64,000 nt of DNA, from positions 37,425-101,424 of the forward strand of contig CALUHC010000041.1 of NCBI GenBank assembly GCA_944320355.1. The letters are read 5' to 3'. Positions 4,243 through 62,250 of the stretch are shown here, one piece after another. This DNA comes from an uncultured Prevotella sp. (lineage in GTDB: Bacteria; Bacteroidota; Bacteroidia; Bacteroidales; Bacteroidaceae). Position 1 is the first letter of the stretch. Every line of letters begins with the position of its first letter. Below the pieces are notes generated by a model. It was not told where the DNA came from. It made no database searches and was given only the letters and a program-made list of their open reading frames with translations. Both the position numbers and the translations under genes were made by a program.

Positions 4243-4488
4243 ATAAAAACTTAGGACATTCCAAATAAAAAAACGCACAATCTTCCGAAAGTGTGCCATT
4301 TAATGACTTTGATTAACCCATCATCCAAAAATGTTTTTGGCTGACTATCAATGTGCAAGCCCGTTTTCGTGGCGCCAAACGCAGCCATGCCATGACTTCT
4401 CGGCGGCATGAAACAGCGGCTTTGATTTCTGACATAAAAAGGCCATTCGCCTCGCCCCACATAACCACTTGACTGTCAGCACATTGAG

Positions 4489-4598
4489 AAACAGGCCATT
4501 TCGCAGTGCGAAACGGCACATTTCAGGCGACAAAACGACCCGTTTTGGAACGCGAAACGGCACATATCGCAGGCCGAAACGCCAACCTTTGATTTTTG
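4489..4598 (+). repeat. 22-bp palindromic-core array R1 (5 units)
   Basis: Five units begin at 4489, 4511, 4533, 4555 and 4577, an exact 22-base period. Each unit is a 13-base near-palindrome of form AAACG-NNN-CGTTT (for example AAACGGCACATTT and AAACGACCCGTTT), followed by a 9-base linker that differs between units; the fifth is degenerate. A left flank TTGACTGTCAGCACATTGAG (from 4469) and right flank CCTTTGATTTTTGGCAC resemble the flanks of the other arrays in the window. It lies between the divergent glycogen operon and the 5041 gene. No coding potential. Confidence 0.85.
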
Positions 4599-4647
4599 GC
4601 ACACGCAGCACCACCTGCAAAGGACGCTGCACGGCGACAACCAGAAT

Positions 4648-4818
4648 GGGGCTGTGTCAAAATGTAGTTGAAAGGAGTTAACCGAAGTCAGACGCCCTAT
4701 CGGTCGCCGAAAGTTAACGGACAATGGCCTGGAAATCAGCAACAAAACATACGTCTGTAACTCCAGATTACTTCGGGCGAAGCCCCAAACTCCAGTTAAC
4801 TCCATTCTGACACAGCCT
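4648..4818 (+). mobile_element. MITE-like element, copy A
   Basis: About 171 bases bounded by terminal inverted repeats: GGGGCTGTGTCAAAATG at the left and the complement of GAGGCTGTGTCAGAATG at the right, 15 of 17 positions matching. The interior is itself partly palindromic (AGGAGTTAACCGAAGT against ACTCCAGTTAACTCC; CTTCGGGCGAAG near the right). A second copy, about 95 percent identical by my alignment, lies at 54186-54358. It has no open reading frame, so mobilisation would need a transposase supplied from elsewhere. I could not define a target-site duplication. It sits 50 bases to the right of array R1. Confidence 0.75.
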
Positions 4819-4893
4819 CTAATGCCATACCCGCCAATTTCAAAAAGGCTGTTAACGGAAGCATTTCATAACCGTAAATACGTATGTTTGCAT

Positions 4894-4901
4894 TAACTTT
4901 G
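4894..4901 (+). promoter_or_regulatory. -7 box for the 5041 gene
   Basis: TAACTTTG matches TAnnTTTG exactly and lies 10 bases upstream of leader element L1, so transcripts would start at or just before the leader. Confidence 0.6.
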
Positions 4902-4911
4902 CATAAAATAT

Positions 4912-4976
4912 GCTGCACTCGGGCAATTGCGAACAAGTTCGCTTGCCGCCCGTTTGCGTCATCTTTAACATAAGGC
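4912..4976 (+). ncRNA. Conserved 5' leader element L1 (bulged hairpin)
   Basis: Begins GCTGCACTCGG, followed by a hairpin at 4922-4947: outer stem GGCAA/TTGCC, a two-base TT bulge on the 5' side, inner stem GCGAA/TTCGC and loop CAAG, then CCGCCCGTTTGCG. Related leaders occur at 7927-7982, 14151-14203 and 18061-18112, with pair-preserving changes in both stems. It lies between the promoter at 4894 and the ATG at 5041. Structured leader is inference from covariation; no known riboswitch class was recognised. Confidence 0.6.
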
Positions 4977-5040
4977 AAACTGCGCCTGTGCCGATTACGG
5001 GGGCGCTTGGACTATATATTCACGACAAAAACAGACGACA

Positions 5041-5934
5041 ATGAAGAAGTTTAGAAAAATTGTGGCCATAGAGCCTGTGGGACTGGAGCCGTGGGCTGTG
5101 GAGCGGTTGCACGGCATGGCAGACAGCGTGGTGATGCACGACGACATTCCACATGGAGCAGACGAGGTGGTGGGCCGCATCGGCGATGCCGACGGGGTGT
5201 TGCTCAGCTGGACGACAAACCTCACCGGCGATATGCTGGCGCGATGCAAGGAAGTGCGTTATGTGGGTATGTGCTGCTCGCTCTATTCGCCCGAGAGCGC
5301 CAACGTTGACATCCGCTTTGCCGAGGCTCACGGCATAACGGTTACGGGAATACGCGACTACGGCGACGAGGGAGTGGTGGAATACGTGGTTAGCGCGCTC
5401 GTCAGGCGGCTCCACGGGTTCGGCATGGAGCCGTGGCTTGGCGAGCCGAGCGAGATAACAGGGCTTAAAGTAGGCGTTGTCGGCCTCGGCAAGTCGGGCG
5501 GGATGATAGCCGACGCGATGCGGTTCTTCGGCGCTGATGTGGCCTACTTCGCCCGCAGCGAGAAGCCGGCGGCCGCAGCCAAGGGCTACAAGTTTATGCC
5601 ACTGGGAGACCTGCTGGAGTGGAGCGACGCGGTGTTCTGCTGCCTGAACAAGAACACGGTGCTGCTTGGCGACGCGGATTTTGCCCGCCTGGGCAACCAC
5701 AAACTGCTGTTCAACACCGGACTTTCGCCCGCGTGGGAGGAAGAAGCATTTGCGCGCTGGATAGAAGGCGACAACGCTTGTTACTGCGACACGGTGGGAG
5801 CACTCGGCGGCACGCGCTTCCTCGACCATCCCCACGTGCGCTGTGCCGGTGTGTCCACAGGCCGCACACGACAGGCTTCGGTGCGGCTCAGCGAGAAAGT
5901 GCTGGCCAACCTGGAGGCGTTTTTGAGAAGTTAA
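5041..5934 (+). CDS. D-isomer-specific 2-hydroxyacid dehydrogenase-like protein
   Basis: 297-residue NAD(P)-dependent dehydrogenase of the 2-hydroxyacid dehydrogenase fold. The Rossmann dinucleotide motif GLGKSG is at residues 148-153, followed by an ADV acidic end of the second strand. The usual catalytic arginine position (family NTxRG) reads NTGLSPAWEEE here, so the arginine is not evident, while the late histidine (LDHPHV) can be seen. It could be a sugar-acid or phosphonate-type reductase or a divergent paralog; substrate unknown. Monocistronic: a leader element precedes it and a large palindrome follows before the convergent nadX. Confidence 0.8.
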   Translation: MKKFRKIVAIEPVGLEPWAVERLHGMADSVVMHDDIPHGADEVVGRIGDADGVLLSWTTNLTGDMLARCKEVRYVGMCCSLYSPESANVDIRFAEAHGITVTGIRDYGDEGVVEYVVSALVRRLHGFGMEPWLGEPSEITGLKVGVVGLGKSGGMIADAMRFFGADVAYFARSEKPAAAAKGYKFMPLGDLLEWSDAVFCCLNKNTVLLGDADFARLGNHKLLFNTGLSPAWEEEAFARWIEGDNACYCDTVGALGGTRFLDHPHVRCAGVSTGRTRQASVRLSEKVLANLEAFLRS

Positions 5935-5947
5935 GAGGGCGTTTGAA

Positions 5948-6126
5948 AAGGAGTTACAAGGAGCTAAAAAAGGAGTTACAAGGAGTTATAGGGAGTAAGA
6001 AGGAGTTATAAGGAGTAAGAAGGAGTTAGAGGACGTATGTTAGGCTGTTTTATATGGCCATTGCTCAATCACGAAGCATACGTCTTCTAACTCCTTCTAA
6101 CTCCTCCTGACTCCCTATAACTCCTT
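5948..6126. repeat. Decamer repeats (AAGGAGTTAT-like) forming a long inverted repeat
   Basis: About eight head-to-tail variants of AAGGAGTTAT/AAGGAGTAAG fill 5948-6030. The segment 5980-6039 is the left arm and 6077-6126 the right arm of an inverted repeat: about 50 paired bases with three mismatches, plus one extra 10-base repeat unit in the left arm, around a 37-base loop. Both arms end at GACGTATG/CATACGTC. It separates two convergent genes and could serve as a bidirectional terminator. Partial similarity to the interior of the MITE copies (CATACGTC, TAACTCC) suggests common origin. Confidence 0.8.
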
Positions 6127-6132
6127 CAATCG

Positions 6133-6936
6133 TTACACAAACACCACTGGCGAGGCGATGTTGCGCAGCGTGCTCACAACTGACCACGCGGCTATCTCGG
6201 CCGTGGAGCTGTAGACATCGACCACGGCGCGCACCTGCTCGTTCCTTATCTCGACGCGCTGTGTGTCGCCCTTGAAGCCGGGTGTCGATTGTATGGACAC
6301 CTTCATGCGTTCCGGTCCTACCGAAGCCCTTGCCGCGGCCACGGTCACATTGACCTTGGTGGGGAATAGTTTTATGGCCTCCGAGGCCGTTCCGCTGAAC
6401 ACTGTGCGGCGTTCGGTCTGCAGCGAGTCGTCATATACGGGTGTGCCTCTCAGCGCGTCTGGGCCTTTCTCGTTGAAGAACTCGGCCGAAGCGCCACCCA
6501 TCAGCGCCGCCGTCTGCAGCACGTCAAACCCTCCCGTGGCTCCCGACACCACGTAGAGACGGCTGCCATGCTCGCGGGCAGTGCGCATCACATCGGCATA
6601 AAAGGCATCGTCGGCCAGCGCACCTATCGACAGGCACACCACCGAAATGCCAGCCTGCAGTGCCGGCAAGGCCCACTGCCGCAGTGCGGCGGGCGCTGCT
6701 GCCTCGACGAGGAAGTCGGGACGGAGGGCCAGCAGGTCATCGAACGTGCGGGCAACGGTGCATCTCCTGCCGCCGTCACCAAGCTCGCGGGCAAGTGCTT
6801 CGGCCTTGCCCACAGTGCGCGAGAACAGTGCCGTCAGCTCGTATCCGGGCAGAAAGCCGGAGGCTGCGGCGCGAGCCACGATGCAGCCCAGCTTGCCGCA
6901 TCCGGCTATGGCCAGTGTCTTGACTTGTGTTTCCAT
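6133..6936 (-). CDS. nadX: L-aspartate dehydrogenase family protein
   Basis: 267-residue NAD(P)-dependent L-aspartate dehydrogenase-type protein (DUF108). It has an N-terminal nucleotide-binding motif AGCGKLG (residues 11-17), the SGATGGFD segment and the KVNVTVAAARASVG block of the C-terminal aspartate-binding domain. NadX enzymes make iminoaspartate for NAD synthesis and can substitute for NadB; alternatively it degrades aspartate. It starts 10 bases after the nitronate monooxygenase-like gene ends on the same strand, so they are probably co-transcribed from the promoter at 7993. Family call firm; physiological direction inferred. Confidence 0.85.
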   Translation of the reverse strand: METQVKTLAIAGCGKLGCIVARAAASGFLPGYELTALFSRTVGKAEALARELGDGGRRCTVARTFDDLLALRPDFLVEAAAPAALRQWALPALQAGISVVCLSIGALADDAFYADVMRTAREHGSRLYVVSGATGGFDVLQTAALMGGASAEFFNEKGPDALRGTPVYDDSLQTERRTVFSGTASEAIKLFPTKVNVTVAAARASVGPERMKVSIQSTPGFKGDTQRVEIRNEQVRAVVDVYSSTAEIAAWSVVSTLRNIASPVVFV

Positions 6937-6946
6937 CGCGGGCGCA

Positions 6947-7894
6947 CTAAATGAAGTCGTTTTCAGTTATGGCTTTCTTGGCCTCAGAGTATTCCGCCAT
7001 GAGCCTTTCCATCACCGTTGCGGTGGGTTCCACGGCCTTGATGGCCGATGCTATCTGCCCTATTTCCAGTTCGCCGCCGTCCACATCGCCCTCAAAGATG
7101 CCGCGTTTTGTCGATGCCTTGCCGAGGATGCCGCGCAGCTCGTCGGCCTCCGCGCCGCGGCTCTCGGCCTCGGCCACTTTGTCGTAGAGAGCGTTCTTTA
7201 CCAACCGGCTGGGCGAAATCTTCTTTAGGCACAGCATGGTGTCGCCCTCTTCGAGTGCTATGCACCGCTGCTTGAACGCCTCCGAGGCCGAGCTCTCTGC
7301 CGTGAGGGCGAAGAGCGTGCCTGCCTGCACGCCCTCGGCACCGAGCGCCATGGCCGCCAGCATGGCCTGTCCGCTGCCTATCCCGCCCGCGGCGACGAGC
7401 GGCAGCGACGTGGCGCGGCGCACCTGGGGTATCAGGGTGAGCGTGGTCGTCTCCTCACGCCCGTTGTGTCCGCCCGCCTCGAAGCCCTCGGCAACCACGG
7501 CATCTACCCCGGCTTCCTCACACTTGCGCGCAAACTTGCTGCTCGACACCACGTGAGCCACCTTGATACCGGCCTCATGGAGGCGCGCGGTGTACTTCTT
7601 CGGACTGCCGGCCGAGGTGAACACAATCTTCACTCCCTCGCCGATGAGTATGTCTATGAGCCTGTCTATCTCGGGATACATCAGCGGCACGTTGACGCCC
7701 CAGGGCTTGTCGGTGGCCGCTTTCATCTTGTTTATGTGCTCAATGAGCGTCTCGGGGTGCATGGAACCGGCCCCGAGCAGGCCCAGTCCGCCAGCGTTGC
7801 TCACTGCGGAGGCCAGACGCCAGCCGCTGCACCACACCATTCCGCCTTGGATTATCGGATAGCGGATGCCGAAAAGATTGCATATTCTGTTCAT
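6947..7894 (-). CDS. Nitronate monooxygenase / FabK-like FMN enzyme
   Basis: 315-residue TIM-barrel flavoprotein of the NPD/nitronate monooxygenase and enoyl-ACP reductase II superfamily. Visible features are the N-terminal YPIIQGGMVWCSG segment, the AEGFEAGGHNGR FMN/active-site loop and the phosphate-binding LVAAGGIGSG motif followed by LGAEGVQAGTLF. Sequence alone does not separate nitronate detoxification from FabK-type fatty-acid enoyl reduction. The start is the ATG at 7894, preceded by leader element L2 and a perfect -7 box. Lead gene of a probable two-gene unit with nadX. Confidence 0.8.
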   Translation of the reverse strand: MNRICNLFGIRYPIIQGGMVWCSGWRLASAVSNAGGLGLLGAGSMHPETLIEHINKMKAATDKPWGVNVPLMYPEIDRLIDILIGEGVKIVFTSAGSPKKYTARLHEAGIKVAHVVSSSKFARKCEEAGVDAVVAEGFEAGGHNGREETTTLTLIPQVRRATSLPLVAAGGIGSGQAMLAAMALGAEGVQAGTLFALTAESSASEAFKQRCIALEEGDTMLCLKKISPSRLVKNALYDKVAEAESRGAEADELRGILGKASTKRGIFEGDVDGGELEIGQIASAIKAVEPTATVMERLMAEYSEAKKAITENDFI

Positions 7895-7926
7895 TGTCTG
7901 CTTGTTTTTTGTTGTGGAAACTTGTA

Positions 7927-7982
7927 CAAAGATATGGCAAACGAGCGGAAAGAGAACTTGTTCTCAATTTCCTGAGTGCAGC
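7927..7982 (-). ncRNA. Conserved 5' leader element L2 (bulged hairpin)
   Basis: Minus-strand sequence begins GCTGCACTCAGG and folds as outer stem GGAAA/TTTCC, two-base TT bulge, inner stem GAGAA/TTCTC and loop CAAG, then CGCTCGTTTGCC. Relative to L1, one outer pair changes C-G to A-T and one inner pair changes C-G to A-T, so both changes preserve pairing. It lies between the -7 box at 7993 and the ATG at 7894. Confidence 0.6.
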
Positions 7983-7992
7983 ATATCTTCTA

Positions 7993-8000
7993 CAAAGATA
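7993..8000 (-). promoter_or_regulatory. -7 box for the nitronate monooxygenase-nadX unit
   Basis: TATCTTTG on the minus strand matches TAnnTTTG exactly, 10 bases before leader L2. Confidence 0.6.
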
Positions 8001-8062
8001 GGCAAAAAGTTCTGTCCGGCAAAGTCTTTACGTTTAAATCAGCTCTGCGTGTGCCTGTTTCG

Positions 8063-8977: not shown

Positions 8978-9003
8978 ATTGCTTCGTGCTTGTTTTCAGC
9001 CCG

Positions 9004-9011
9004 CAAAAGTA
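9004..9011 (-). promoter_or_regulatory. -7 box for the AEC transporter
   Basis: TACTTTTG on the minus strand, 26 bases upstream of the ATG at 8977; exact match to TAnnTTTG. Confidence 0.55.
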
Positions 9012-9075
9012 GTGTTTTTTCGCGAAACGTGGCATCGAGGCACGGTTAAAATCGGGCGATATGCGAAATATTGCT

Positions 9076-9083
9076 TACTTTTG
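9076..9083 (+). promoter_or_regulatory. -7 box for the DUF554 gene
   Basis: TACTTTTG matches TAnnTTTG and lies 23 bases before the ATG at 9107, giving a very short leader. It is divergent from the AEC transporter promoter 65 bases away. Confidence 0.55.
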
Positions 9084-9106
9084 CAGCAGCAAACACAGAC
9101 TGAAAG

Positions 9107-9805: not shown

Positions 9806-9831
9806 GACGGGGCGCAAGCAGTCCGGCATAA

Positions 9832-9886: not shown

Positions 9887-9943
9887 GATGACCACAAGAG
9901 AGCCCAACAACAGTTAACTCCCTTGCATCCAAATTTCCAAAGA

Positions 9944-14543: not shown

Positions 14544-14619
14544 TATATACCTTGTTTTTTGATACACTCGACACAACAACTATCATAGCTGTAAATGCTT
14601 GATAATCAATGGGGTTACG

Positions 14620-14729
14620 AAATGTGCCGTTTCGGCCTGCAAAACGGCACATATTGCACGCCAAAACGTGCCGTTTCGTGCCCTGAAACGGCACGTCTTG
14701 CAAACCGAAACGGTTGGCTTTGTTTTTTG
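14620..14729 (+). repeat. 22-bp palindromic-core array R2 (5 units)
   Basis: Units begin at 14620, 14642, 14664, 14686 and 14708, exactly 22 bases apart. Neighbouring cores are reverse complements (ATGTGCCGTTT with AAACGGCACAT; ACGTGCCGTTT with AAACGGCACGT), so pairs of units could form 11-bp stems with 9-base loops. Left flank TTGATAATCAATGGGGTTAC (from 14599) and right flank GGCTTTGTTTTTTGACA match array R4 in inverse orientation, which defines the element's ends. Confidence 0.87.
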
Positions 14730-14861
14730 ACAAACAAGTGGCAATATTTAATGGACATACAGAAGGGGCTGTCCCTGAGCATCTGTCCTGGTTTTATCAA
14801 AGCCTATTTGATCTTGATTTTCATGGCTGATTTGCCCGTTTGCTGAGGAACATAACGTACT

Positions 14862-21299: not shown

Positions 21300-21387
21300 A
21301 TATATGCCGTTTTGCACTGCAAAACAAGCCTTTTAGCTCTCCGATCTGTGCCATTTCGCATTTCAAAGCGGCACATATCGCAAAACA
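21300..21387 (+). repeat. 22-bp palindromic-core array R3 (4 degenerate units)
   Basis: Units begin at 21300, 21322, 21344 and 21366. Cores are more decayed than elsewhere (ATATATGCCGTTT, AAACAAGCCTTTT, ATCTGTGCCATTT, AAGCGGCACATAT), but the 22-base register is kept exactly. Flanks contain TTTTTTGACC on the left and GTTTTTGTCAAG on the right. It lies in the 1-kb gap between the TonB-domain gene and the DUF6268-like pair. Confidence 0.7.
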
Positions 21388-24863: not shown

Positions 24864-25417
24864 ACGTGCCTGCCTGCGGCGGTGTGCATACGGACTTACA
24901 ACGCCAAAAGCACCGCTCTACAGTCCGCCCGAAGACGTATCAAAAATCAAAGCCTGCCGTTTTGGCTTGCGAAATGTGCCGTTTCGCGTTCCAAAACGAC
25001 CCGTTTCAAGCTCTAAAACGTGCCGTTTTGGTCTGCAAAACGGCACGTTTTGTAACCCCACTGATTATCAACCGGTTACAAAGCGCACGCAGACTGTTGG
25101 CAAGGTATCAAAAAACACGGTTAAGGTATGCCGCGCACAAGATGACGCACCACACCGATTCACCACAGCAACAACAAGCAGAAAAGGACACAATAGAAAC
25201 ACATATACGCCAGACGGCACCCAGAAGGACCTGCAACACAGCCTCACCTCAAACGGCAAACGCACCATACGGACAAGCCGGACGACACAAAGTGAAAGAA
25301 AAAGGAACTATACACAACATAACTGACGGCACGACAATCATAACAATGCCTCCACGTATTTTGCCCACCAGAATGCAAATTCTTTACAAAAAGCATCTGC
25401 CATACAATAAAATTCTG
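24864..25417. other. Gene-free region holding array R4
   Basis: Contains array R4 (24950-25059) and its flanks. The 25072-25417 part is A/C-rich without a convincing frame. A 186-codon plus-strand frame (24860-25420) runs straight through the repeat array, has low-complexity composition and is rejected as coding. Confidence 0.5.
24950..25059 (-). repeat. 22-bp palindromic-core array R4 (5 units)
   Basis: Units begin at 24950, 24972, 24994, 25016 and 25038. The last two cores, AAACGTGCCGTTT and AAACGGCACGTTT, are perfect reverse complements with a 9-base loop (13-bp potential stem). Left edge ATCAAAAATCAAAGCC (24939-24954) and right edge GTAACCCCACTGATTATCAA (to 25071) are the inverted counterparts of the R2 flanks, so this copy lies in the opposite orientation. 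Confidence 0.88.
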
Positions 25418-33797: not shown

Positions 33798-34185
33798 GCG
33801 CAGGGCAACGGCACCGCGCCTGCCACCAGACCACGCCAAGCCACCGAATGCAGGCTAAGTTCCATGGATAATAACACGGCGAAAACAGGCGCGGAGGCGG
33901 CACAGCGTAACTCATTGGCACTCAACGCATTGCAAAACGGGTCGAATTGGCTCGCAAAACGGCTCGTTTCAGCTCGCGAAACGGGCCGTTTCGCAATGTG
34001 AAACGGCCCGTATTGCAAACCGACACCGCCGAGGCTTCCGCACAAGCCCACTGCACCGGTGCCGGCAACAGCCCACAAAAGCATCGGGAACGGAGGCCAA
34101 ACAAACAGAAACGCCGCCATGGCGACCGCACCGTATGCCACCGAAACGCACAGAAAGCACAACACGCAGACACAGGCAACAAGAC
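33798..34185. other. Gap between pyrF and the HD hydrolase
   Basis: Holds array R5 (33935-34022). The remainder (33798-33934 and 34023-34185) is C/A-rich with no convincing frame, promoter or terminator that I can support. Confidence 0.45.
33935..34022 (+). repeat. 22-bp palindromic-core array R5 (4 units)
   Basis: Units begin at 33935, 33957, 33979 and 34001. Cores use G/C-rich centres (AAACGGGTCGAAT, AAACGGCTCGTTT, AAACGGGCCGTTT, AAACGGCCCGTAT). The left flank TTGGCACTCAACGCATTGC lines up base for base in length with the left flank of R2 and R4. Confidence 0.82.
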
Positions 34186-44815: not shown

Positions 44816-46375
44816 TCAGAAGGCACAACGGCCGTCGCCTGCCGGCGGCGGAAGCATATCGCCGCCAAACGGGTCGTAATCCATCGGCATATCGGGCAGT
44901 CCGGCGTCGCCGTTGATGCGCGAGCCCACAATCTCGCCCCCTCCGCCAGCAGTGGCCGACTTGCCAAGGCGCGTATCCTCGGGATTCTCAAAGCGGGTGA
45001 ACTCCCCGCGGAAGGTCAGCAGCACGTCGCCTGTGGCGCCCTTACGGTGCTTGGCTATGATGATTTGGGCCATGCCGTGCAGGTCGCGGCCGTTTTCGTC
45101 CTGATATATATGGTAATATTCCGGACGGTGGACGAACAGCACCATGTCGGCATCCTGCTCTATTGCGCCCGACTCTCGCAAGTCGCTCAGCTGCGGCCGC
45201 TTGCCTTCCAGGCCCTCGCGCGACTCCACTCCGCGGTTCAGCTGGCTCAGAGCCAATATCGGTATGTCGAGCTCCTTGGCCAGCCCCTTCAGCGAACGCG
45301 ATATTGTCGACACCTCTTCCTGGCGGCTGCTGAAGCGCATTCCGTTGGCATTCATCAGCTGCAGGTAGTCTATCATTATCAGCTTCACACCATGCTCGCG
45401 CACAAGCCGCCGCGCCTTTGTGCGCAACTCGAAGACCGAAAGTCCCGGTGTGTCGTCCACATAGAGCGGCGCGCCTATCAGGTTGCCCATCCGCTTGTCC
45501 AGCCGCTCCCACTCGTCGGGCTGCAACTGGCCGTTCAGTATCTTGCTTCCCTGTATCTCGCAGCAGTTGGAAATCAGTCGGTTCACCAGCTGCACGTTGC
45601 TCATTTCGAGCGAGAAGAAAGCCATCGGCACCTTATAGTCAGCCGCGATGTTTTTCGCCATGGACAGCGCGAACGACGTCTTACCCATGGCCGGTCGGCC
45701 GGCAATGATGACAAGGTCGCTCGCCTGCCATCCGCTGGTTATGTCGTCCAGCTTGTGATAGCCCGTGGGCACACCCGTGAGGCCGTCCTTGTTGGCCGCC
45801 GCCTTCTGTATCACCTCCACGGCGTTCTTTATCACAGGGTCTATCTGGGTGTAGTCCTTCTTCATGTTGATGCGCGAAAGCTCGAAGAGCGAGCCTTCGG
45901 CCTCCTGCATCAGGTCGTCTATGTCAACAGTGTCATCGAACGCCTTGGTCGTTATCACGCCCGCGTATGATATGAGCTGGCGTGCGATGAACTTCTGCGC
46001 TATTATCCGCGCATGGAATTCGATGTTGGCCGACGAGGCCACGCGCGAGGTCAGCTCCACGATGTAGGCCGGCCCGCCCACCTCGTCAAGGTCGCCGTTC
46101 TTGGCCAGCTGCTGCGTCACGGTAAGCTCGTCGACAGGCTGCTCGGCCATGCTGAGGTCACGCACAGCGGCATATATCTTCTGGTTGCGCGGCTCGTAGA
46201 AGCTCTCCGGGTATAGAATCTCGCACACCACGGCGTATGCGTCCTTGTCAATCATCAGCGCCCCCAGCACAGCACGCTCCACATCGAGAGCCTGCGGCTG
46301 CAGATGCCCATAAGTATTGTCCACCGGGGCTGCCTTGCGCGGCCTCCGTGGCCTGTTGTTCTCTTGTTCTGCCAT
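44816..46375 (-). CDS. dnaB: Replicative DNA helicase
   Basis: 519-residue DnaB. The N-terminal primase-interacting domain (QALDVERAVLGALMIDKDAY) is followed by a RecA-like ATPase with Walker A GRPAMGKTS at 226-234, LIMIDYLQLM, LSQLNRGVESR and the DLRESGAIEQDADMV signature. No intein is present. I chose the ATG at 46375 (MAEQENNRPRR), which sits just after a perfect promoter box; the longer frame to 46654 is not conserved. Confidence 0.96.
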   Translation of the reverse strand: MAEQENNRPRRPRKAAPVDNTYGHLQPQALDVERAVLGALMIDKDAYAVVCEILYPESFYEPRNQKIYAAVRDLSMAEQPVDELTVTQQLAKNGDLDEVGGPAYIVELTSRVASSANIEFHARIIAQKFIARQLISYAGVITTKAFDDTVDIDDLMQEAEGSLFELSRINMKKDYTQIDPVIKNAVEVIQKAAANKDGLTGVPTGYHKLDDITSGWQASDLVIIAGRPAMGKTSFALSMAKNIAADYKVPMAFFSLEMSNVQLVNRLISNCCEIQGSKILNGQLQPDEWERLDKRMGNLIGAPLYVDDTPGLSVFELRTKARRLVREHGVKLIMIDYLQLMNANGMRFSSRQEEVSTISRSLKGLAKELDIPILALSQLNRGVESREGLEGKRPQLSDLRESGAIEQDADMVLFVHRPEYYHIYQDENGRDLHGMAQIIIAKHRKGATGDVLLTFRGEFTRFENPEDTRLGKSATAGGGGEIVGSRINGDAGLPDMPMDYDPFGGDMLPPPAGDGRCAF

Positions 46376-46396
46376 TAGGATTTTCGGTTTGGACTG

Positions 46397-46404
46397 CAAA
46401 AGTA
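46397..46404 (-). promoter_or_regulatory. -7 box for dnaB
   Basis: TACTTTTG on the minus strand, exact match, 21 bases upstream of the ATG. Confidence 0.6.
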
Positions 46405-46710
46405 CAAAAAATGATGGTAATAACACTGCCTTTTCACGGCAAAATGACAAGAACCTCGCCCGAGGCAGACAGACAGCCTCACGCCACAGACACCGCAACA
46501 AGACAAGCCGCAGCGCCTGCCACAGTGCCGCCGCATACCGGCAATACAGCAAGTGCATCACGCCGGCCGGACAAAACGCCGCACATCCGCAAGCCCCGGG
46601 GACAACAAGACGCCTGCCTGCGGCACACATCATACAGACAAGCCAAGAGGGCATGCAAGCAGAATGCGCACCGCCTGTAAGTCAAGTCATTGACAATCAG
46701 CATAGTTACA

Positions 46711-46798
46711 AAACGTGCCGTTTTAGCTTGCAAAACGGCACGTTTCGGGCGGTGAAACGGCACGTTTCAGGGTGCCAAACGGCACATATTGCAAACCA
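46711..46798 (+). repeat. 22-bp palindromic-core array R6 (4 units)
   Basis: Units begin at 46711, 46733, 46755 and 46777. Units 1 and 2 have perfect complementary cores (AAACGTGCCGTTT and AAACGGCACGTTT) with a 9-base loop. Left flank TTGACAATCAGCATAGTTAC (from 46690) and right flank AAAAGTTGGCATTGTGTT match those of R1 and R2. Confidence 0.87.
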
Positions 46799-54050: not shown

Positions 54051-54075
54051 CGCGTATGAGCCGTATCGGGGCGCA

Positions 54076-54163
54076 AAACGTGCCGTTTCGCTCCCCGATA
54101 CGGCACGTTTCACCGTCCGAAACGACCCATTTCGCATGACAAAACGGCCCTTTCTGCAAGTCA
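54076..54163 (-). repeat. 22-bp palindromic-core array R7 (4 units)
   Basis: Units begin at 54076, 54098, 54120 and 54142, with cores AAACGTGCCGTTT, ATACGGCACGTTT, AAACGACCCATTT and AAACGGCCCTTTC. The flank GCAAGTCACTGGCTATCAGC on the right resembles the inverted left flank of R2, so orientation is reverse. MITE copy B starts 22 bases after the last unit. Confidence 0.82.
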
Positions 54164-54185
54164 CTGGCTATCAGCTGGTTTGACA

Positions 54186-54358
54186 GGGGCTGTGTCAAAA
54201 TGTAGTTGAAAGGAGTTAACCGAAGTCAGACGACCTATCGGTCGCCGGAAGTTAACGGACAATTGCTTGGTAATCAGCAACAAAACATATGTCTGTTAAC
54301 TCCAGATAACTTCGGGCGAAGCCCCAAACTCCAGTTAACTCCATTCTGACACAGCCTC
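54186..54358 (+). mobile_element. MITE-like element, copy B
   Basis: About 173 bases, near-identical to copy A at 4648: I count about seven substitutions and one single-base indel. Same terminal inverted repeats (GGGGCTGTGTCAAAATG and the complement of GAGGCTGTGTCAGAATG). Recent-looking divergence for two copies 50 kb apart. It abuts the flank of array R7. Confidence 0.78.
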
Positions 54359-54472: not shown

Positions 54473-55930
54473 TCAGCGTTTCCTTTTTTTCTTCTGCAAT
54501 TTCGGAATCTTTATTTTCTGTCCGGCCTTAAGATGTATGTCACCGCTAAACCCGTTGTACGTCTCGACATAACACTCCATCCCCGGCCCGAGATGGCGGT
54601 CGCTGATGTCTCCGATGGTCTGCCCGGCCTTGACCGTCACCACCTTGTCGGTGCCAATGATGCGATACGCCCCGTAACGTATCCTGCTGTCCATGCGCTC
54701 ATACTTTTCAGAGTCGAACGCCTCTGCCGCGCTCTCTGCCTGTCCGGGCTGTGCCTTTTGTGGTTCCTGCGCAGGTTTTGTATCGGTGGCGGGCTTGCTC
54801 TCTGCAGCCTGCGGCTTTGCGTCACGGCGCACTGTATCGGTAGGCACCGGCACAGCCAGAGTGTCGGCCACCGCAAGAGCTGGCGCTGCGGGCTTGGTCT
54901 GCTTTGATGACGGCTCATCCTTGTCATCCGCTGCCGCCAACGTTTTGCCGTCGGACATATACTTGCCGTACAGAAAACCGATGTAACCCGAACAGGTCAT
55001 CAAGGCCAACACCACCACGCAGAGCAGCGTCCACTTCAGCACTGTGTGCCCTCCACTGTCATTCCGAGACGTGTCCTCCACGGCGGCAGGCTCTGTGGTT
55101 GCGACCTCTTCCGTTTCCTCCGCGGTCACTTCAGCACCTGATTCTGAACTTTCGTCCGCGGCTTCGTATACCGATTCGCTTTCATCAGGTTCTGCGACCG
55201 CATTTTCTTCTGCCACGGCACTATCATCTACGTCACCGGCGGCGGCATGGCCGTCCACCGGCCCGTCATTTTCCGAACGGGCTTCCGATGGCTCTTCCGG
55301 CTCTGCTTGCGGCTCATCGGTCGGCACAGCGACAAGTTCCGACGGCTCATCGGCAACCGCCACGACACTCACCTCTACGACATCACGCCCCTGCTCGTCC
55401 GCCGTGCCTTCATCCGCCGGTACGCCAGCGGCAGTGGCATTTGCCTCTTCGCCAGCCAACGAGTCTTCGTCAGCCATGCTTCCGTCGTCAGCCGATGCGT
55501 CATCTGCGTCCGGCTCTTCGGCCTCAGGCTCGTTTTCGTCGGCCGATATTTCCGGCTCAGGCACCGGTTCGCCCTTATCCGCCTCAAGGTCGTCAAACTC
55601 CACGCCGTCATTGAGTATCACCGTCTCAAACTGCGAGAACGGTTTGTTCACCAGTTCCTTCATCAGCGAGTCGGGCGTGAAGGTAATCTTGTCATGGCTC
55701 TCTATGAGAACGCGCTCACCGTTGTTCACGTTCACGCTCTCACGCGCGCTGACACCAACGAGCTTGAACGTGCCAAGCCCCTTCACCTTCACAATCCGCT
55801 CCGTGCCGAGAGCCTGGCGCACCACGTCAAACATCGTGGCGACAAAAAGCTGCGCCACACTCGGTTCGAGTTTCTTTCGGTCGGCCAGCACGCGAGCCAA
55901 ATCCTGTATAGTCATCGTCTCCATGCTCAT
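54473..55930 (-). CDS. Membrane protein fusing an HU-like domain to a LysM domain
   Basis: 485 residues. 1-~100: HU/IHF-like domain (MTIQDLARVLADRKKLEPSV; VKVKGLGTFKLVGV). ~105-290: very acidic Ala/Glu/Asp linker. ~296-322: one transmembrane helix (TVLKWTLLCVVVLALMTCSG). ~323-410: Pro/Ala/Lys linker. ~425-477: LysM domain (VVTVKAGQTIGDISDRHLGP; LKAGQKIKIP). Predicted topology puts HU in the cytoplasm and LysM at the peptidoglycan. HU fused to envelope-binding domains is known in Bacteroidota, usually with SPOR. The start at 55930 overlaps the HU gene stop (ATGA), so the two are coupled. Confidence 0.88.
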   Translation of the reverse strand: MSMETMTIQDLARVLADRKKLEPSVAQLFVATMFDVVRQALGTERIVKVKGLGTFKLVGVSARESVNVNNGERVLIESHDKITFTPDSLMKELVNKPFSQFETVILNDGVEFDDLEADKGEPVPEPEISADENEPEAEEPDADDASADDGSMADEDSLAGEEANATAAGVPADEGTADEQGRDVVEVSVVAVADEPSELVAVPTDEPQAEPEEPSEARSENDGPVDGHAAAGDVDDSAVAEENAVAEPDESESVYEAADESSESGAEVTAEETEEVATTEPAAVEDTSRNDSGGHTVLKWTLLCVVVLALMTCSGYIGFLYGKYMSDGKTLAAADDKDEPSSKQTKPAAPALAVADTLAVPVPTDTVRRDAKPQAAESKPATDTKPAQEPQKAQPGQAESAAEAFDSEKYERMDSRIRYGAYRIIGTDKVVTVKAGQTIGDISDRHLGPGMECYVETYNGFSGDIHLKAGQKIKIPKLQKKKRKR

Positions 55931-56214
55931 CCTTGCGTTTGGTTCTTCACCTTGTCTTTCCAATCGTCGGCCGGCCTGAAGGCAAGCACCAGCTTGGGAG
56001 GCACAAGCATACGCTGCTGTGTGGTGGGATTCACCATTATGCGCTCCATCTTCTTGCGCACATCAAAGTTGCCAAATCCGTCGATGGCCACCGACGAGCC
56101 GTCCTGAAAGGCATCTCCGAGGGCATCGATGACGGTATTGACCATCTTCTGGGTCGATGCGGCGGTATAGCCTGTGCGGCGCGACAGCTCAGCGATAAAC
56201 TCCTTGTTATTCAT
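55927..56214 (-). CDS. HU-family DNA-binding protein
   Basis: 95-residue HU/IHF-like nucleoid protein (EFIAELSRRTGYTAASTQKM; AIDGFGNFDVRKK). The arm region reads PTTQQRMLVPPKLVLAF, close to the usual NPxT arm. Upstream of, and overlapping, the HU-LysM gene by 4 bases, so it may partner with it. Confidence 0.92.
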   Translation of the reverse strand: MNNKEFIAELSRRTGYTAASTQKMVNTVIDALGDAFQDGSSVAIDGFGNFDVRKKMERIMVNPTTQQRMLVPPKLVLAFRPADDWKDKVKNQTQG

Positions 56215-56223
56215 AAGATGATA

Positions 56224-57528: not shown

Positions 57529-57531
57529 GTG

Positions 57532-58488
57532 TCAGTCTTTCTTGAACAACGAATCAACAAACTGGCGCTTGTTGAAAAGCTGAAGGTCTTCCATGCCTTC
57601 GCCAAGGCCGATATACTTGACAGGAACTTTCAGCTGGTCGCTGATGCCAATCACGACACCGCCCTTGGCCGTGCCGTCAAGCTTGGTGATGGCGAGCGAT
57701 GTTATTTGCGTCACGGCCGAGAACTGCTTGGCCTGCTCGAAAGCATTCTGCCCGGTGCTGCCGTCGAGCACCAGCATCACCTCGTCGGGAGCCTGCGGCA
57801 GCACTTTCTTCATCACGTCCTTTATCTTCTTCAGCTCGTTCATCAGCCCCACCTTGTTGTGCAACCGCCCGGCCGTGTCTATCAACACCACGTCGGCACC
57901 GTTGGCCTTCGCGCTGTTGAGTGTGTCAAACGCCACCGAAGCGGGGTCGCTGCCCATCTGCTGCTTTATCACAGTCACGCCGACGCGCTCGCCCCAAATG
58001 CACAGCTGCTCTACCGCAGCGGCACGGAATGTGTCGGCCGCGCCAAGGTAAACTTTCTTTCCGGCCTTCTTGAACTGATACGCCAACTTGCCTATCGTGG
58101 TGGTCTTCCCCACCCCGTTGACGCCAACAACAAGCACCACGTATGGCTTATGGTCGGCCGGCAAGTCCCAGTTGTCATTGTCATCGGCATTGTTTTCAGA
58201 CAGCAGGGCTGCTATCTCATCGCGCAAGATGCCGTTAAGCTCCGACGTGCTCACATATTTGTCGCGTGCAACGCGCTCCTCTATGCGCTTGATTATCTTC
58301 AAAGTGGTATCCACACCGACATCGCTCGTGATGAGCACCTCCTCAAGGTTGTCGAGCACATCGTCGTCAACCTTAGACTTGCCCGCCACGGCACGCGCCA
58401 GCTTATCGAACACGCTCGCCTTCGTTTTCTCCAGACCCTTGTCGAGCGTTTCCTTCTTGTTCTTATTAAAAAAGCCGAAAATTCCCAT
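57532..58488 (-). CDS. ftsY: Signal recognition particle receptor FtsY
   Basis: 318-residue SRP GTPase. Short N-terminal region MGIFGFFNKNKKETLDKGLE then the NG domain with G1 GVNGVGKTT (122-130), AADTFRAAAVEQL, IDTAGRLHNK and ITKLDGTAKGG. The start at 58488 (MGIFGF) is the conserved one; the longer frame reads into the promoter. The -7 box is at 58506. Confidence 0.97.
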   Translation of the reverse strand: MGIFGFFNKNKKETLDKGLEKTKASVFDKLARAVAGKSKVDDDVLDNLEEVLITSDVGVDTTLKIIKRIEERVARDKYVSTSELNGILRDEIAALLSENNADDNDNWDLPADHKPYVVLVVGVNGVGKTTTIGKLAYQFKKAGKKVYLGAADTFRAAAVEQLCIWGERVGVTVIKQQMGSDPASVAFDTLNSAKANGADVVLIDTAGRLHNKVGLMNELKKIKDVMKKVLPQAPDEVMLVLDGSTGQNAFEQAKQFSAVTQITSLAITKLDGTAKGGVVIGISDQLKVPVKYIGLGEGMEDLQLFNKRQFVDSLFKKD

Positions 58489-58505
58489 ATCGCGATATTT
58501 TAGTG

Positions 58506-58513
58506 CAAACTTA
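58506..58513 (-). promoter_or_regulatory. -7 box for the ftsY-rimO-HU run
   Basis: TAAGTTTG on the minus strand, exact match, 17 bases upstream of the ftsY ATG. Confidence 0.55.
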
Positions 58514-58647
58514 CACAAAATTTTCGAGATTACGGCTTTATATATAAACAAAATGACCGCCAGGCATAACAAAACCCCATACAGACAATGCAAAGGCGCC
58601 CAACCGTACCGAAGCCACGCCCACGGAAAGCGAGGGCAAGAGCAAAA

Positions 58648-58676
58648 AAGGCCACGCACTTACTGTGCGCAGCCTT
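58648..58676 (-). terminator. Rho-independent terminator of the rpmB-rpmG-DUF4295 operon
   Basis: On the minus strand AAGGC-TGC-GCAC-AGTAA-GTGC-GTG-GCCTT is followed by a run of T residues, just after the DUF4295 stop. Confidence 0.8.
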
Positions 58677-58701
58677 AAATATGCTTAAGAGTAACTGTTT
58701 C

Positions 58702-58860
58702 TCAGTTCTTGAAGAAGTCCTTAACGGCCTCGTTGGGAACCATCTGCTCGTCAAAGATGTAAGCACCCGTCTTGGGGCTCTTCACCATCTTTATCACTTT
58801 TGAGTAAGCGCGACCATCCTTCGAGCCTTCGTGGAGGGTAGCGACGGTTTTCTTTGCCAT
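58702..58860 (-). CDS. DUF4295 family small protein
   Basis: 52 residues, MAKKTVATLHEGSKDGRAYS then KVIKMVKSPKTGAYIFDEQ, ending AVKDFFKN. This basic small protein family is characteristically encoded after L28 and L33 in Bacteroidota and is thought to be ribosome-associated. It follows rpmG by 23 bases and ends at a good terminator. Confidence 0.9.
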   Translation of the reverse strand: MAKKTVATLHEGSKDGRAYSKVIKMVKSPKTGAYIFDEQMVPNEAVKDFFKN

Positions 58861-58883
58861 GCTTTAAGTACTTATGTTTGTCG

Positions 58884-59072
58884 TTATTTAATCTCCTTGT
58901 GGAGCGTCATTTTCTTCAAGATAGGATTGTACTTCATCAACTCCATCCTATCAGGAGTGTTCTTGCGATTCTTGGTCGTGACATAACGGCTTGTACCGGG
59001 CAGCCCACTGTTCTTCATCTCAGTGCACTCCAGGATAACCTGAACACGATTGCCTTTCACTTTCTTTGCCAT
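58884..59072 (-). CDS. rpmG: 50S ribosomal protein L33
   Basis: 62 residues; [39 protein letters not shown] and KYNPILKK are typical. No CxxC zinc pairs (zinc-independent type). In operon with rpmB, 6 bases downstream of it. Confidence 0.95.
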
Positions 59073-59078
59073 AATAAA

Positions 59079-59342
59079 TTAGTCTCCTATCACTTTAATG
59101 TCCTTCCAATCGCAATATCCATTGGCAACAGCCTTCTTCAAAGCTGCATCAAGACCTACCTTATTAATCAGGCGCAGACCGGCTGCGCTGAGCTTCAAGC
59201 TAATCCAGCAATTCTCCTCTACATAGTAGAATTTCTTGCGGAAGAGGTTTACATCAAAGCGACGCTTGGTACGGTGCTTTGAGTGAGACACATTACAACC
59301 TACCTGTGCCTTCTTTCCCGTAATCTGACAAATCTTCGACAT
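59079..59342 (-). CDS. rpmB: 50S ribosomal protein L28
   Basis: 87 residues; N-terminal [20 protein letters not shown] and KRRFDVNL are the L28 signature, ending in the C-terminal [10 protein letters not shown]. First gene of the L28-L33-DUF4295 operon; promoter box at 59393. Confidence 0.96.
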
Positions 59343-59392
59343 TTCTATCTAAGTTTTTCGGTTCGTTTTTGTAACTTATTCCAAACAGGTTG

Positions 59393-59400
59393 CAAAGGTA
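59393..59400 (-). promoter_or_regulatory. -7 box for rpmB
   Basis: TACCTTTG on the minus strand, exact match, 50 bases upstream of the ATG. Confidence 0.55.
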
Positions 59401-59488
59401 AGGCTTTTTTTTCTAAACGCCAAACTTTTGTCCTAAAAATCAGTCTTTTAAGGATTATTTTGTCCTCTGCCACCCGCCTTTTGCATCT

Positions 59489-60010
59489 TTACTTGACCTC
59501 GTCTGCCTCATATTCCACCGCGCTGTCTTCACGCAGGAAATCCAAGAAGAGCTGCAAAGCCCTCTTGGTGGCTATGGCAAGGTTTATGTCACGGCCGTGG
59601 TCTTCCTCCACCTTGGCTGTCTTGTACCTGCCGGGAGTGCCGCAGGCCAGCCAGATGGTGCCCACGGGTATGTCCTTTGTGCCGCCCGTAGGGCCGGCGA
59701 TGCCCGTCGCCCCTATGGCGAAATCGGTGTTCAGGGCCTTGCAGGCACCGTCAACCATGGCTATGGCCACCTCTTCGCACACGGCCGTCTTCTCTTCGAG
59801 CAGCCCGTGCGACACGGCGAGCAGCCTCTCCTTTATCTCGTTGGTATACGAGATGACACCTCCCTTGAAATACTTCGACGCCCCGGGAACCGAGATTATG
59901 GCTTCGGCTATGCGGCCCCCGGTGCAGCTCTCGGCCGTGGCGAGTGTCTGTTCGCGCTCCCAGAGCAGCTGGCTTATCTCTCTGCTTATTATCTTGCTTT
60001 CAAATTCCAT
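59489..60010 (-). CDS. pncC: CinA-family nicotinamide-nucleotide amidohydrolase
   Basis: 173-residue stand-alone PncC/CinA C-terminal domain that hydrolyses NMN to nicotinate mononucleotide. Active-site segments are TAESCTGGRIAEAI and the IGATGIAGPTGGT loop. It lacks the N-terminal COG1058 domain of full CinA. Six bases after tsaD. Confidence 0.9.
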   Translation of the reverse strand: MEFESKIISREISQLLWEREQTLATAESCTGGRIAEAIISVPGASKYFKGGVISYTNEIKERLLAVSHGLLEEKTAVCEEVAIAMVDGACKALNTDFAIGATGIAGPTGGTKDIPVGTIWLACGTPGRYKTAKVEEDHGRDINLAIATKRALQLFLDFLREDSAVEYEADEVK

Positions 60011-60016
60011 AGTAAG

Positions 60017-61048
60017 TTATTTAAATGTCACTTTCGAGAATGCAGGCGCGTCAATGCCGCAGAAATCGCCGTCAAGGTACTTGTAATAGCCCGTGATGCC
60101 TATCATGGCGGCGTTGTCGGTGGTGTAGCTGAACTTGGGGATGTAGATTGTCCAGCCATACTTGTCGGCGTGTTCGCGGAATGCGTTGCGCAGCCCGTTG
60201 TTGGCGCTCACGCCGCCAGCCACCGCCACGTGCTTGATGCCCGTCTGGCTCACGGCCTTGCGCAGCTTCTTCATGAGTATGTCCACGATGGTGAACTCAA
60301 GGCTTGCGGCGATGTCTTCCTTGTGGCGCTCTATGAAATCGGGGTCTGCCGCCACCCATTCGCGCAAGGAATAGAGGAACGAGGTCTTCAGCCCGCTGAA
60401 GCTGTAGTCGAGGTTCGGTATCTGGGGCTCGGCAAACTTGTATGCGTGCGGGTTGCCCTGCCGCGCCAGCCTGTCTATTATCGGCCCGCCGGGATAGCCC
60501 AGCCCCATCACCTTGGAGCACTTGTCGATGGCCTCGCCGGCCGCGTCGTCGATGGTCTGGCCTAGCACCTCCATGTCGTTGTACGCGTTCACCTTCACTA
60601 TCTGCGAGTTTCCGCCGCTCACGAGCAGGCAGATGAACGGCAGAGGCGGCGCCGAGCGGTCGTCGTCGCTTTCCTTTATGAAGTGAGCCATGACATGACC
60701 CTGCAGGTGGTTCACGTCGACAAGAGGGATGCCCAGCGAGCGGGCAAAGCCCTTGGCGAAGCTCACGCCAACGAGCAATGAGCCCATGAGCCCGGGGCCG
60801 CGCGTGAATGCCACTGCCGACAAGTCCTCTTTTGTGATTCCGGCGCGCTTTATGGCTTGGTCCACCACCGGCACCACATTCTGCTGGTGGGCGCGCGACG
60901 CCAGTTCAGGCACCACGCCTCCGTAGGCCCGGTGCACGTCCTGGCTCGCGGTGACGTTGCTCAGCAGCACTCCGTTGCGCAACACAGCTGCCGACGTGTC
61001 GTCGCAACTGCTCTCTATACCTAATATATATATATCCTTGTTGTCCAT
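60017..61048 (-). CDS. tsaD: tRNA N6-adenosine threonylcarbamoyltransferase
   Basis: 343-residue catalytic subunit for t6A37 synthesis. Metal ligands His 114 and His 118 (NHLQGHVMAH), IESSCDDTSAAV near residue 11, FTRGPGLMGSLLVG and the GGVSANNGLR loop are all present. Seven bases after map. Confidence 0.96.
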   Translation of the reverse strand: MDNKDIYILGIESSCDDTSAAVLRNGVLLSNVTASQDVHRAYGGVVPELASRAHQQNVVPVVDQAIKRAGITKEDLSAVAFTRGPGLMGSLLVGVSFAKGFARSLGIPLVDVNHLQGHVMAHFIKESDDDRSAPPLPFICLLVSGGNSQIVKVNAYNDMEVLGQTIDDAAGEAIDKCSKVMGLGYPGGPIIDRLARQGNPHAYKFAEPQIPNLDYSFSGLKTSFLYSLREWVAADPDFIERHKEDIAASLEFTIVDILMKKLRKAVSQTGIKHVAVAGGVSANNGLRNAFREHADKYGWTIYIPKFSYTTDNAAMIGITGYYKYLDGDFCGIDAPAFSKVTFK

Positions 61049-61055
61049 CGGTCTG

Positions 61056-61916
61056 TCAGTATGTGAGCACCTCCACGCCGTGCTCGGTCATAAGGAACGT
61101 GTGCTCCCACTGCGCGCTCGGCAGTTCGTCGCCGGTGATCACCTCCCATCCGTACTCGTCGTCGGCATCGATGAACACCTTCCACGTGCCCATGTTTATC
61201 ATCGGCTCTATGGTGAACACCATGCCCGGCACGAGCAGCATACCCGTGCCCCGGTGACCGTAGTGCAGCACCTCAGGCTCCTCGTGGAACTGCAAGCCCA
61301 CGCCGTGGCCGCAAAGGTCGCGCACCACTCCGTAGTGGTATTTCTCCGCGTGCTTCTGTATGGCATGGCCTATGTCGCCCACAAAGCCGTATGGCTTGGC
61401 GGCCTCGGCCCCCACTTCGAGGCACTCCTTGGCCACGCGCACCAGCTGCTCCTTCTCGGGCGTGGTCTTGCCGATGATGAACATACGCGAAGCGTCGGCG
61501 TAATAGCCGTCAAGAATGGTCGTGAAGTCCACGTTGACTATGTCGCCCTCCTTCAGCACGTCGGTTGCCTTCGGTATGCCGTGGCACACCACCTCGTTGA
61601 TGCTGGTGCACACGCTCTTGGGGAAGCCCTCGTAGTTGAGGTCTGCCGGCACGGCTCCGTGTCCCACGCAATAGTCGTAGCAGATGCGGTCTATCTCAAG
61701 TGTGCTCATGCCTTCGTGTATCTGGCGTGCCACCTCGTCGAGCACTCCCGTGTTCACCACTCCGCTCTTGCGTATGCCCTCTATCTGCTCGGGGGTCTTT
61801 ATAAGGTCGCGCGTTGGCACCAGTTTGCCCTTGTTCTCCCAATACATCACCTGCTTGTCCATCTCGGTGAGGGGCTGTCCGGGCAGCGCGTGCCATCTTT
61901 TCTTCTTACCCAACAT
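61056..61916 (-). CDS. map: Methionine aminopeptidase
   Basis: 286-residue type I MAP with an N-terminal extension (~40 residues) usual in Bacteroidota. Metal ligands lie in VNVDFTTILDGYYADASRMF (two Asp), GHGVGLQFHEEP (His) and FTIEPMINMG (Glu). I chose the ATG at 61916 (MLGKKKRW) over 61976, because the promoter box at 61944 lies between them. Confidence 0.95.
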   Translation of the reverse strand: MLGKKKRWHALPGQPLTEMDKQVMYWENKGKLVPTRDLIKTPEQIEGIRKSGVVNTGVLDEVARQIHEGMSTLEIDRICYDYCVGHGAVPADLNYEGFPKSVCTSINEVVCHGIPKATDVLKEGDIVNVDFTTILDGYYADASRMFIIGKTTPEKEQLVRVAKECLEVGAEAAKPYGFVGDIGHAIQKHAEKYHYGVVRDLCGHGVGLQFHEEPEVLHYGHRGTGMLLVPGMVFTIEPMINMGTWKVFIDADDEYGWEVITGDELPSAQWEHTFLMTEHGVEVLTY

Positions 61917-61943
61917 AATCGTCGCTTCGTTTTTAAAACAATG

Positions 61944-61951
61944 CAAAAGTA
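61944..61951 (-). promoter_or_regulatory. -7 box for the map-tsaD-pncC run
   Basis: TACTTTTG on the minus strand, exact match, 27 bases upstream of the map ATG. Confidence 0.55.
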
Positions 61952-62162
61952 CAATTTTTCCGGCAAACGGCGGCATTTATGCCCCATTTCTTTGCCGGCG
62001 GGCCTAATTTTTGCAGGAGCGAAACGACGCGGGCCGCCATGCTGCACGCGCCGCGGCTACACACGGGCAGGGTGGAATTTAACACTTCGTGAAACATCGG
62101 AATAGAAACGTGAAACAATTCCGGCACAGAAATTCCACCACAAAACACGGGCACGGGGAACC

Positions 62163-62250
62163 ATACGTGCCGTCTTAAAACGCCAAACGGCACATATCGC
62201 ATAGCGAAATGTGCCGTTCCGATTGGCAAAACCACCCGTTTTGTCAAGTA
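62163..62250 (+). repeat. 22-bp palindromic-core array R8 (4 units)
   Basis: Units begin at 62163, 62185, 62207 and 62229, with cores ATACGTGCCGTCT, AAACGGCACATAT, AAATGTGCCGTTC and AAACCACCCGTTT. Units 2 and 3 are reverse complements over ten bases. The right flank GTTTTGTCAAGTATTTTCC resembles that of R3. The unit after the last is not recognisable. Confidence 0.8.

Follow-up and report, generated by a model that had tools for sequence, protein, structure and literature searches.

The matS and Noc sites are short palindromes that lie scattered along the chromosome as single sites, matS having a 3-bp centre; nucleoid organisation in Bacteroidota is, to our knowledge, poorly known. Repetitive extragenic palindromes (REP) and bacterial interspersed mosaic elements (BIME) are characterised in published work by a GTAG/CGTC-type tag beside a palindrome of 20-40 bp (PMC3733652), and the main text of a 2025 REP survey contains, by term search, no mention of Prevotella (PMC12306157). 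The BrickBuilt elements of Porphyromonas gingivalis, which are miniature inverted-repeat transposable elements (MITEs), are described as 19 copies with 1 to 22.8 repeats of the 23-nt direct repeat AGAYCATARTATCCTCTCRTRTG and with IS5-family-like ends (PMC4596501). Here we describe a dispersed element from an uncultured Prevotella sp., found in a 64,000-nt stretch of its genome (the window, searched for arrays at its full length), in which palindromic 13-base cores and 9-base linkers alternate at a pitch of 22 bp. The BrickBuilt consensus is not matched, the period being 22 and the core, AAACGNNNCGTTT, being different. As a sequence-only reading of the window had stated, the arrays are not clustered regularly interspaced short palindromic repeats (CRISPR), in which near-identical repeats alternate with unique spacers of some tens of bases next to cas genes, given their 9-base linkers, variable 13-base cores and genome-wide dispersal; no search for cas genes was made. 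A literature search found no earlier description of the 22-bp Prevotella element within its coverage, outside which most subscription papers lay.

Phased palindromic arrays in the window and the source genome

The sequence-only reading had listed eight arrays, R1 to R8, holding 35 units in a strict 22-bp register. All eight are present where it had placed them, and the register is intact in every one, decayed cores included. Five units were recounted in each of R1, R2 and R4, four in each of R3, R5, R6 and R8, and four in R7, or five if its decayed outer unit is counted, giving 35 or 36. The window contains 20 cores with at most one mismatch to AAACGNNNCGTTT, compared with a mean of 2.3 and a maximum of 6 in 50 dinucleotide shuffles, and the lowest mismatch sum over four units is 1, compared with 15 in the best of 50 such shuffles.

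In the source genome (2.48 Mb, 80% complete), a three-unit pattern with at most three mismatches matched 431 places. Arrays were then characterised in a sample consisting of the window and 20 further stretches (454,195 bp, 18% of 2.48 Mb), using a strict finder that requires one core with at most one mismatch and misses decayed arrays like R3. The sample contained 70 arrays, 39 with four units, 28 with five, two with three and one with two, from which we estimate by extrapolation approximately 380 arrays in the source genome. The genome scan that had been suggested, as carried out on this sample, showed that cores are not randomly spaced. Among 296 pairs of cores (at most one mismatch) lying no more than 120 bp apart in the sample, 148 were separated by 22 bp, 97 by 44 bp, 45 by 66 bp and 6 by other distances, so that 290 of 296 close pairs keep the 22-bp register. 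Only 12 of 239 good cores were solitary.

A single array of the 70 overlapped a called gene (rough gene caller), and with 70 arrays in 454 kb the genome shares with REP/BIME elements an abundance of palindromic units arrayed between genes. The flanking genes were tandem for 33 arrays, divergent for 17 and convergent for 13, while 6 arrays lay at stretch ends; background gaps of at least 100 bp were divided 114 tandem, 31 divergent and 33 convergent, and arrays showed no clear preference for a gene arrangement. The intergenic placement would suit operators or promoters of adjacent genes, and BrickBuilt segments are reported to show bidirectional promoter activity (PMC4596501), but the absence of a gene-orientation preference argues against local gene regulation, which we consider quite improbable.

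Architecture of the element and its relatives

Column statistics were obtained from the 65 of 70 arrays with four cores and sufficient flank. Pooled after orientation, these arrays give the unit consensus YR-AAACG-N-S-N-CGTTT-YR-NNNNN (Y, pyrimidine; R, purine; S, G or C). Of 520 central core bases (260 cores, both strands counted), 518 were G or C, and the outer linker dinucleotide was pyrimidine-purine in 373 of 390 (CG 135, TG 133, CA 88, TA 17). At the first linker base, 0.92 of 0.93 bits reside in the Y/R class, and the middle linker base carries 0.01 bit. The description of the linker as free and not conserved therefore fails at its edges. These edges conserve a class of DNA flexibility instead of letters, which is the trace that we would expect from a DNA-flexibility requirement. 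A/T content in the source genome has its period peak at 11.0 bp.

Next to the array lies a conserved dyad, in its best form GTAAC..TTGATNATCA..GGTTAC; farther out, the ends vary among several subfamilies, to which 34 of the 65 arrays could not be assigned. The best-defined, subfamily I, spans CTTTGTTTTTTGATAC to CTTTGATTTTTGATAC, and its ends are direct repeats. Where both ends were recognised (16 copies), the length was exactly 184 bp in 14 and one base off in the other two. Among the 14 copies of exact length, cores were 0.81-0.91 identical, the dyad flank 0.78 and the two ends 0.79 and 0.90, compared with 0.42-0.53 for linkers and 0.30-0.34 for the sequence immediately outside. All 22 copies of the strict subfamily I end motif in the sample were located at arrays, and no solo end motif was found there. 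An element of about 135 bp, as first proposed, is thus replaced by one of 184 bp with sharp ends in the best-defined subfamily; the conserved edges and the dispersal in both orientations were borne out, and related elements occur in other species.

We favour, at slightly less than an even chance, the reading that these are dispersed MITE-like elements whose phased sites serve a dimeric DNA-binding protein. Their role would probably lie in chromosome organisation and not with a single adjacent gene; they were probably spread by a transposition-like process, after which selection on the sites would have maintained them in some lineages. Each palindromic site would bind one dimer of the putative protein. 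The 22-bp pitch, composed of the 13-base core, the YR edges and five variable bases, is about two helical turns, and dimers would sit on one DNA face two turns apart, coating or wrapping 100-180 bp with the assistance of the flexible YR steps. We infer that double-stranded DNA is bound by dimers on one face because cores are conserved, edges are retained only as YR, phasing follows 11 bp, unit number is narrow and indels are nearly absent. The idea of phased dimeric sites, already part of the sequence-only reading, best fits the identity of cores versus linkers, the YR edges, the 11.0-bp period and the near-fixed length, with the binder and its function as the conjectural part.

Next we asked which other genomes carry such elements. 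When named genomes were scanned for exact three-unit matches, at least 54 stretches were hit; among the matches listed, similar arrays were present in P. lacticifex and five Prevotella metagenome-assembled genomes (MAGs), and different-looking arrays in the Prevotellaceae MAG RUG10753 and one Spirochaetes MAG. The same scan of viral contigs gave no match. In a 201-genome sample of the family, including 12 other members of the genus, matches were confined to the source genome and one other genome with a single three-mismatch match. Within the genus (398 genomes), at least one match was present in 32 genomes and ten or more in 11, the source genome included, some of the latter with other-looking cores. 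With the reversed pattern as control, 10 other genomes gave ten or more matches, the highest count being 337; this control is not a neutral null, because the linker-centred dyad of related arrays fits it. Its matches in one genome, G282, are to the linker-centred dyad of a homologous element.

The G282 element agrees in its dyad flank and its TGCNNNGCA linkers but has AAAGCGGCTGTTT, AAAGCGTAGGTTT and related sequences as cores, with TGTAAATATTTTTC and GAATTATCTTTACA at its ends. The 46 arrays yielded 45 oriented copies, with 42 used for core types. Both ends were recognised in 40 of 46 copies, where they form terminal inverted repeats, and all 40 measured 186 bp; conservation continues about 20 bp outward, and the true ends may be farther out. 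Of the 42 copies (elements on L167 and L203-L219), 40 had one X-type and one Y-type core in the middle, with each order seen 20 times. By DNA search, 8 of 14 further genomes had homologues, with many in G217 and G531, and of 24 loci fetched, the 10 with recognised ends were all 186 bp long. The G282 end pattern did not carry over to P. lacticifex, with two weak matches of other length in 16 loci. An apparent orientation bias on contig C1 of G282, where the listed matches beyond ~560 kb were all on the plus strand, was rejected, since the complete set of matches to a second, exact pattern includes both strands there.

An unsupervised scan for periods of 8-60 bp, applied to stretches from genomes preselected by one of the two patterns, was led by period 22, which accounted for 54 of 85 matches in the source genome, 48 of 56 in G282, 18 of 37 in P. 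lacticifex and 7 of 7 in G577; one block shuffle per stretch gave no matches. Stretches of 20 kb from each of three other genera and three pattern-negative Prevotella contained nothing comparable, with one weak and one non-palindromic period-22 match, and because of these six stretches we call the trait patchy across the genomes sampled. Some arrays share the period and differ in sequence. In the Prevotella G577 (L182, L220-L223), several sequences without relation to one another form 22-bp arrays, among them arrays around AGATATCT and around AGGTCTACCT, and in G493 (L122, L179) and G340 (L124) the other half (TTTGGAGGCTTCAAA) is constant and the AAACGNNNCGTTT part variable. The Spirochaetes MAG contig (L099:2717-2950) carries AT-rich 22-bp arrays of AAACGAAACGTTT with two alternating linkers, possibly of independent origin or misbinned.

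The 11.0-bp A/T period (about 11.4 bp in G282) and the YR edges would also be compatible with wrapping by gyrase, an appealing special case. Published work describes G/C variation phased at 10 bp in the E. coli gyrase motif and counts BIME-2 elements among gyrase sites (PMC6379681); by analogy, the arrays, in which A/T blocks alternate with G/C blocks every 11 bp along ~100 bp, might be gyrase wrapping stations. However, conservation at the level of letters in the cores (A not T, C not G) and the switches of letters between lineages exceed the needs of bendability. Wedge-model curvature, slightly raised in G282 (1.093 versus 1.064 shuffled), was not raised in the source genome (1.070 versus 1.061 shuffled). 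Because of the letter-level conservation and the lineage-specific letters a dedicated protein appears preferable to gyrase, and we regard the gyrase explanation as unlikely.

The sequence-only reading had offered pairing of neighbouring cores as hairpins as its alternative. Extended to linker halves, and to RNA or single-stranded hairpins acting as terminators or mRNA ends, this idea was tested in four ways and draws on the self-complementarity of every core and on weak covariation in some of the tests: core 1 with core 2 (z 2.3), the halves of linker 1 (z 2.3), one array dyad among many tried (z 3.5; 60 of the 65 arrays) and one G282 pairing test (P 0.049). Most core-pair tests were null, the fourth core of G282 did not track its partner (exact complement, P 0.14), and given the order of cores, pairs would cross in half of the G282 copies. 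Moreover, arrays had no preference for 3' ends, and an Rfam scan of the window returned no family at or above the gathering score. Hairpins thus seem highly improbable to us, and dimer-bound duplex DNA remains the reading that we favour.

Within the window, R1, R2 and R4 belong to subfamily I. R1 (4420..4602, plus strand, 183 bp) has end motifs at 4420-4435 and 4587-4602, a dyad flank at 4459-4488 and its five-unit array at 4489-4589; R2 (14550..14733, plus strand, 184 bp) has end motifs at 14550-14565 and 14718-14733, a dyad flank at 14590-14619 and its array at 14620-14720; and the reversed R4 (24937..25120, minus strand, 184 bp) has end motifs at 25105-25120 and 24937-24952, a dyad flank at 25051-25080 and its array at 24950-25050. 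R3 (21300..21378, strand unassigned) is a decayed four-unit array with 2-4 mismatches across the 10 fixed positions of each core. R5 (33905..34013, plus strand) combines a dyad flank (33905-33934) with a four-unit array (33935-34013), its outer ends being unrecognised. R6 (46681..46789, plus strand), situated 56 bp from the 5' end of dnaB (44816-46654, minus strand), consists of a dyad flank at 46681-46710 and a four-unit array at 46711-46789. R7 (54054..54184, minus strand) comprises a four-unit array (54076-54154), the decayed outer unit at 54054, a dyad flank (54155-54184) and a partial subfamily II end, and R8 (62163..62241, strand unassigned) is a four-unit array with no recognised dyad flank. 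A second dispersed repeat, GGGGCTGTGTCAAAATGTAGTTGAAAGGAGTTAACC, occurs in identical copies beyond R1 (4648-4683) and beyond R7 (54186-54221). A 496-aa frame (54473-55963, minus strand) whose N-terminus carries a DNA-binding domain of HU type (PF00216, E 1.6e-16) lies approximately 320 bp from R7. No tRNA was found in a search of the window.

Placement and turnover

Spacing was analysed after dropping arrays of fewer than three units and arrays starting less than 200 bp after the preceding one. The 260 kb analysed of contig C35 carry 43 arrays, and 1 of their 42 gaps was below 2 kb, compared with 6.7-8.7 expected under gene-aware nulls (P at most 0.003); the coefficient of variation of the gaps was 0.48, compared with 0.75-0.83 under these nulls. 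For G282, 1 of 45 gaps was below 2 kb, with 5.2-5.8 expected (P 0.011-0.014). These data support short-range exclusion below ~2 kb in two species and regular overall spacing in one species only. Neighbours less than 5 kb apart had the same orientation in 2 of 10 cases and farther neighbours in 10 of 20 (P 0.24), and recombinational loss of close same-orientation copies may add to the spacing pattern.

Orthologous loci, whose comparison had been suggested together with the first reading, revealed presence at some positions and absence at others. Between the source genome and G592, 17 orthologous intergenic regions were matched, of which 3 had arrays in both genomes, 2 in the source only and 12 in neither (Fisher P 0.015). 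One shared pair aligns end to end, the G592 copy being exactly two 22-bp units shorter; in the remaining two shared regions the arrays carry different flanks. In G592, one compact orthologous region lacks the array that the source genome has there. The match of R6 to a G592 array covers dyad flank and array only, so its orthology is uncertain. The different flanks in two of three shared regions, and the two arrays absent from the orthologous region, also count against local gene regulation. In G522 and G287 (89-90% identity, long blocks, one contig), arrays were common to four aligned intergenic loci with no gap within an array. In its behaviour the family resembles a mobile element that certain lineages retain and that decays in others. 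Separately, a 6.2-kb stretch (L148:1403-7595) that starts shortly after an array element is 99% identical to C30 of G592, compared with 80-90% for most neighbouring matches, and is probably a recently shared mobile element.

The main rival, which we find somewhat unlikely, is a purely selfish MITE whose array would be a multi-site transposase binding region and whose ~2-kb exclusion would be transposition immunity; Mu/Tn7-like systems have 22-bp transposase sites and transposition immunity. Dispersed copies with sharp ends, the terminal inverted repeats of G282, presence/absence differences between species with lineage-specific variants, and the depletion of gaps below 2 kb in two species are all consistent with such an element. 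On the other hand, target-site duplications were sought in 42 copies of G282 and 16 of subfamily I, and neither set showed a peak; no transposon with G282 ends was recognised in 400 kb (15% of G282), in which three longer end pairs were uninspected for genes. One array module is combined with different outer ends, the array sits centrally and not at the termini, and the family of REP-associated RAYT transposases (Y1_Tnp, PF01797) gave 0 matches in the source genome, which at 80% completeness was the only genome searched. As far as partial genomes can show, the selfish explanation is weakened by the absence of target duplications and of any recognised partner transposon.

Several results weigh against phased protein-binding stations as well. 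No candidate for the binding protein was identified, the curvature of source-genome arrays was unraised, and pattern-negative Prevotella and other genera had no evident equivalent in 20 kb of each. Overall regular spacing was not significant in G282, and the 13 arrays of P. lacticifex showed no significant spacing effect. The G481 contig examined has few and decayed arrays, and in the orthologous arrays of G522 and G287 fixed core positions were 0.81 identical and linkers 0.72, a small difference; any function is therefore dispensable in some lineages. A more specific proposal, which we hold to be possible but doubtful, is that the stations form an undescribed chromosome-organising system of Prevotella: several hundred near-fixed-length stations with 4-5 dimer sites each, spread by mobile elements and kept no closer than ~2 kb to one another. 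Their recognition letters would have switched by lineage together with an architectural protein while the 22-bp geometry stayed constant. If the binder were found, an element of constant geometry and variable letters would provide a direct handle on nucleoid organisation. Independently, 22-bp arrays may mislead repeat and CRISPR annotation of Prevotella genomes.

Comparison with described elements

Like matS and Noc sites, the element places a short palindrome at scattered positions over the chromosome; unlike these single sites, it has 4-5 phased sites per station, in a chromosomal placement that was sampled and not mapped. As in MITEs generally, copies are short, dispersed and devoid of transposase, and those of G282 have terminal inverted repeats. 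They differ in that target-site duplication is unseen, the ends of subfamily I are direct repeats, and length is nearly fixed despite diverging linkers.

REP/BIME elements are similar in kind to the Prevotella arrays. BIME-2/REP of Enterobacteria likewise form intergenic palindromic arrays, number hundreds per genome and have a proposed role in genome organisation, whereas here short palindromes stand in a strict 22-bp direct register within an element of near-fixed length. BrickBuilt shares the order Bacteroidales, the intergenic location and a tandem unit of similar size within a MITE-like element with leader and tail (PMC4596501); the elements described here have 22-bp units with palindromic cores, 4-5 units per array and an estimated ~380 arrays. 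As far as its published descriptions extend, BrickBuilt is the nearest published kin in build, differing in period, sequence, copy number and ends (PMC4596501, PMC5771137).

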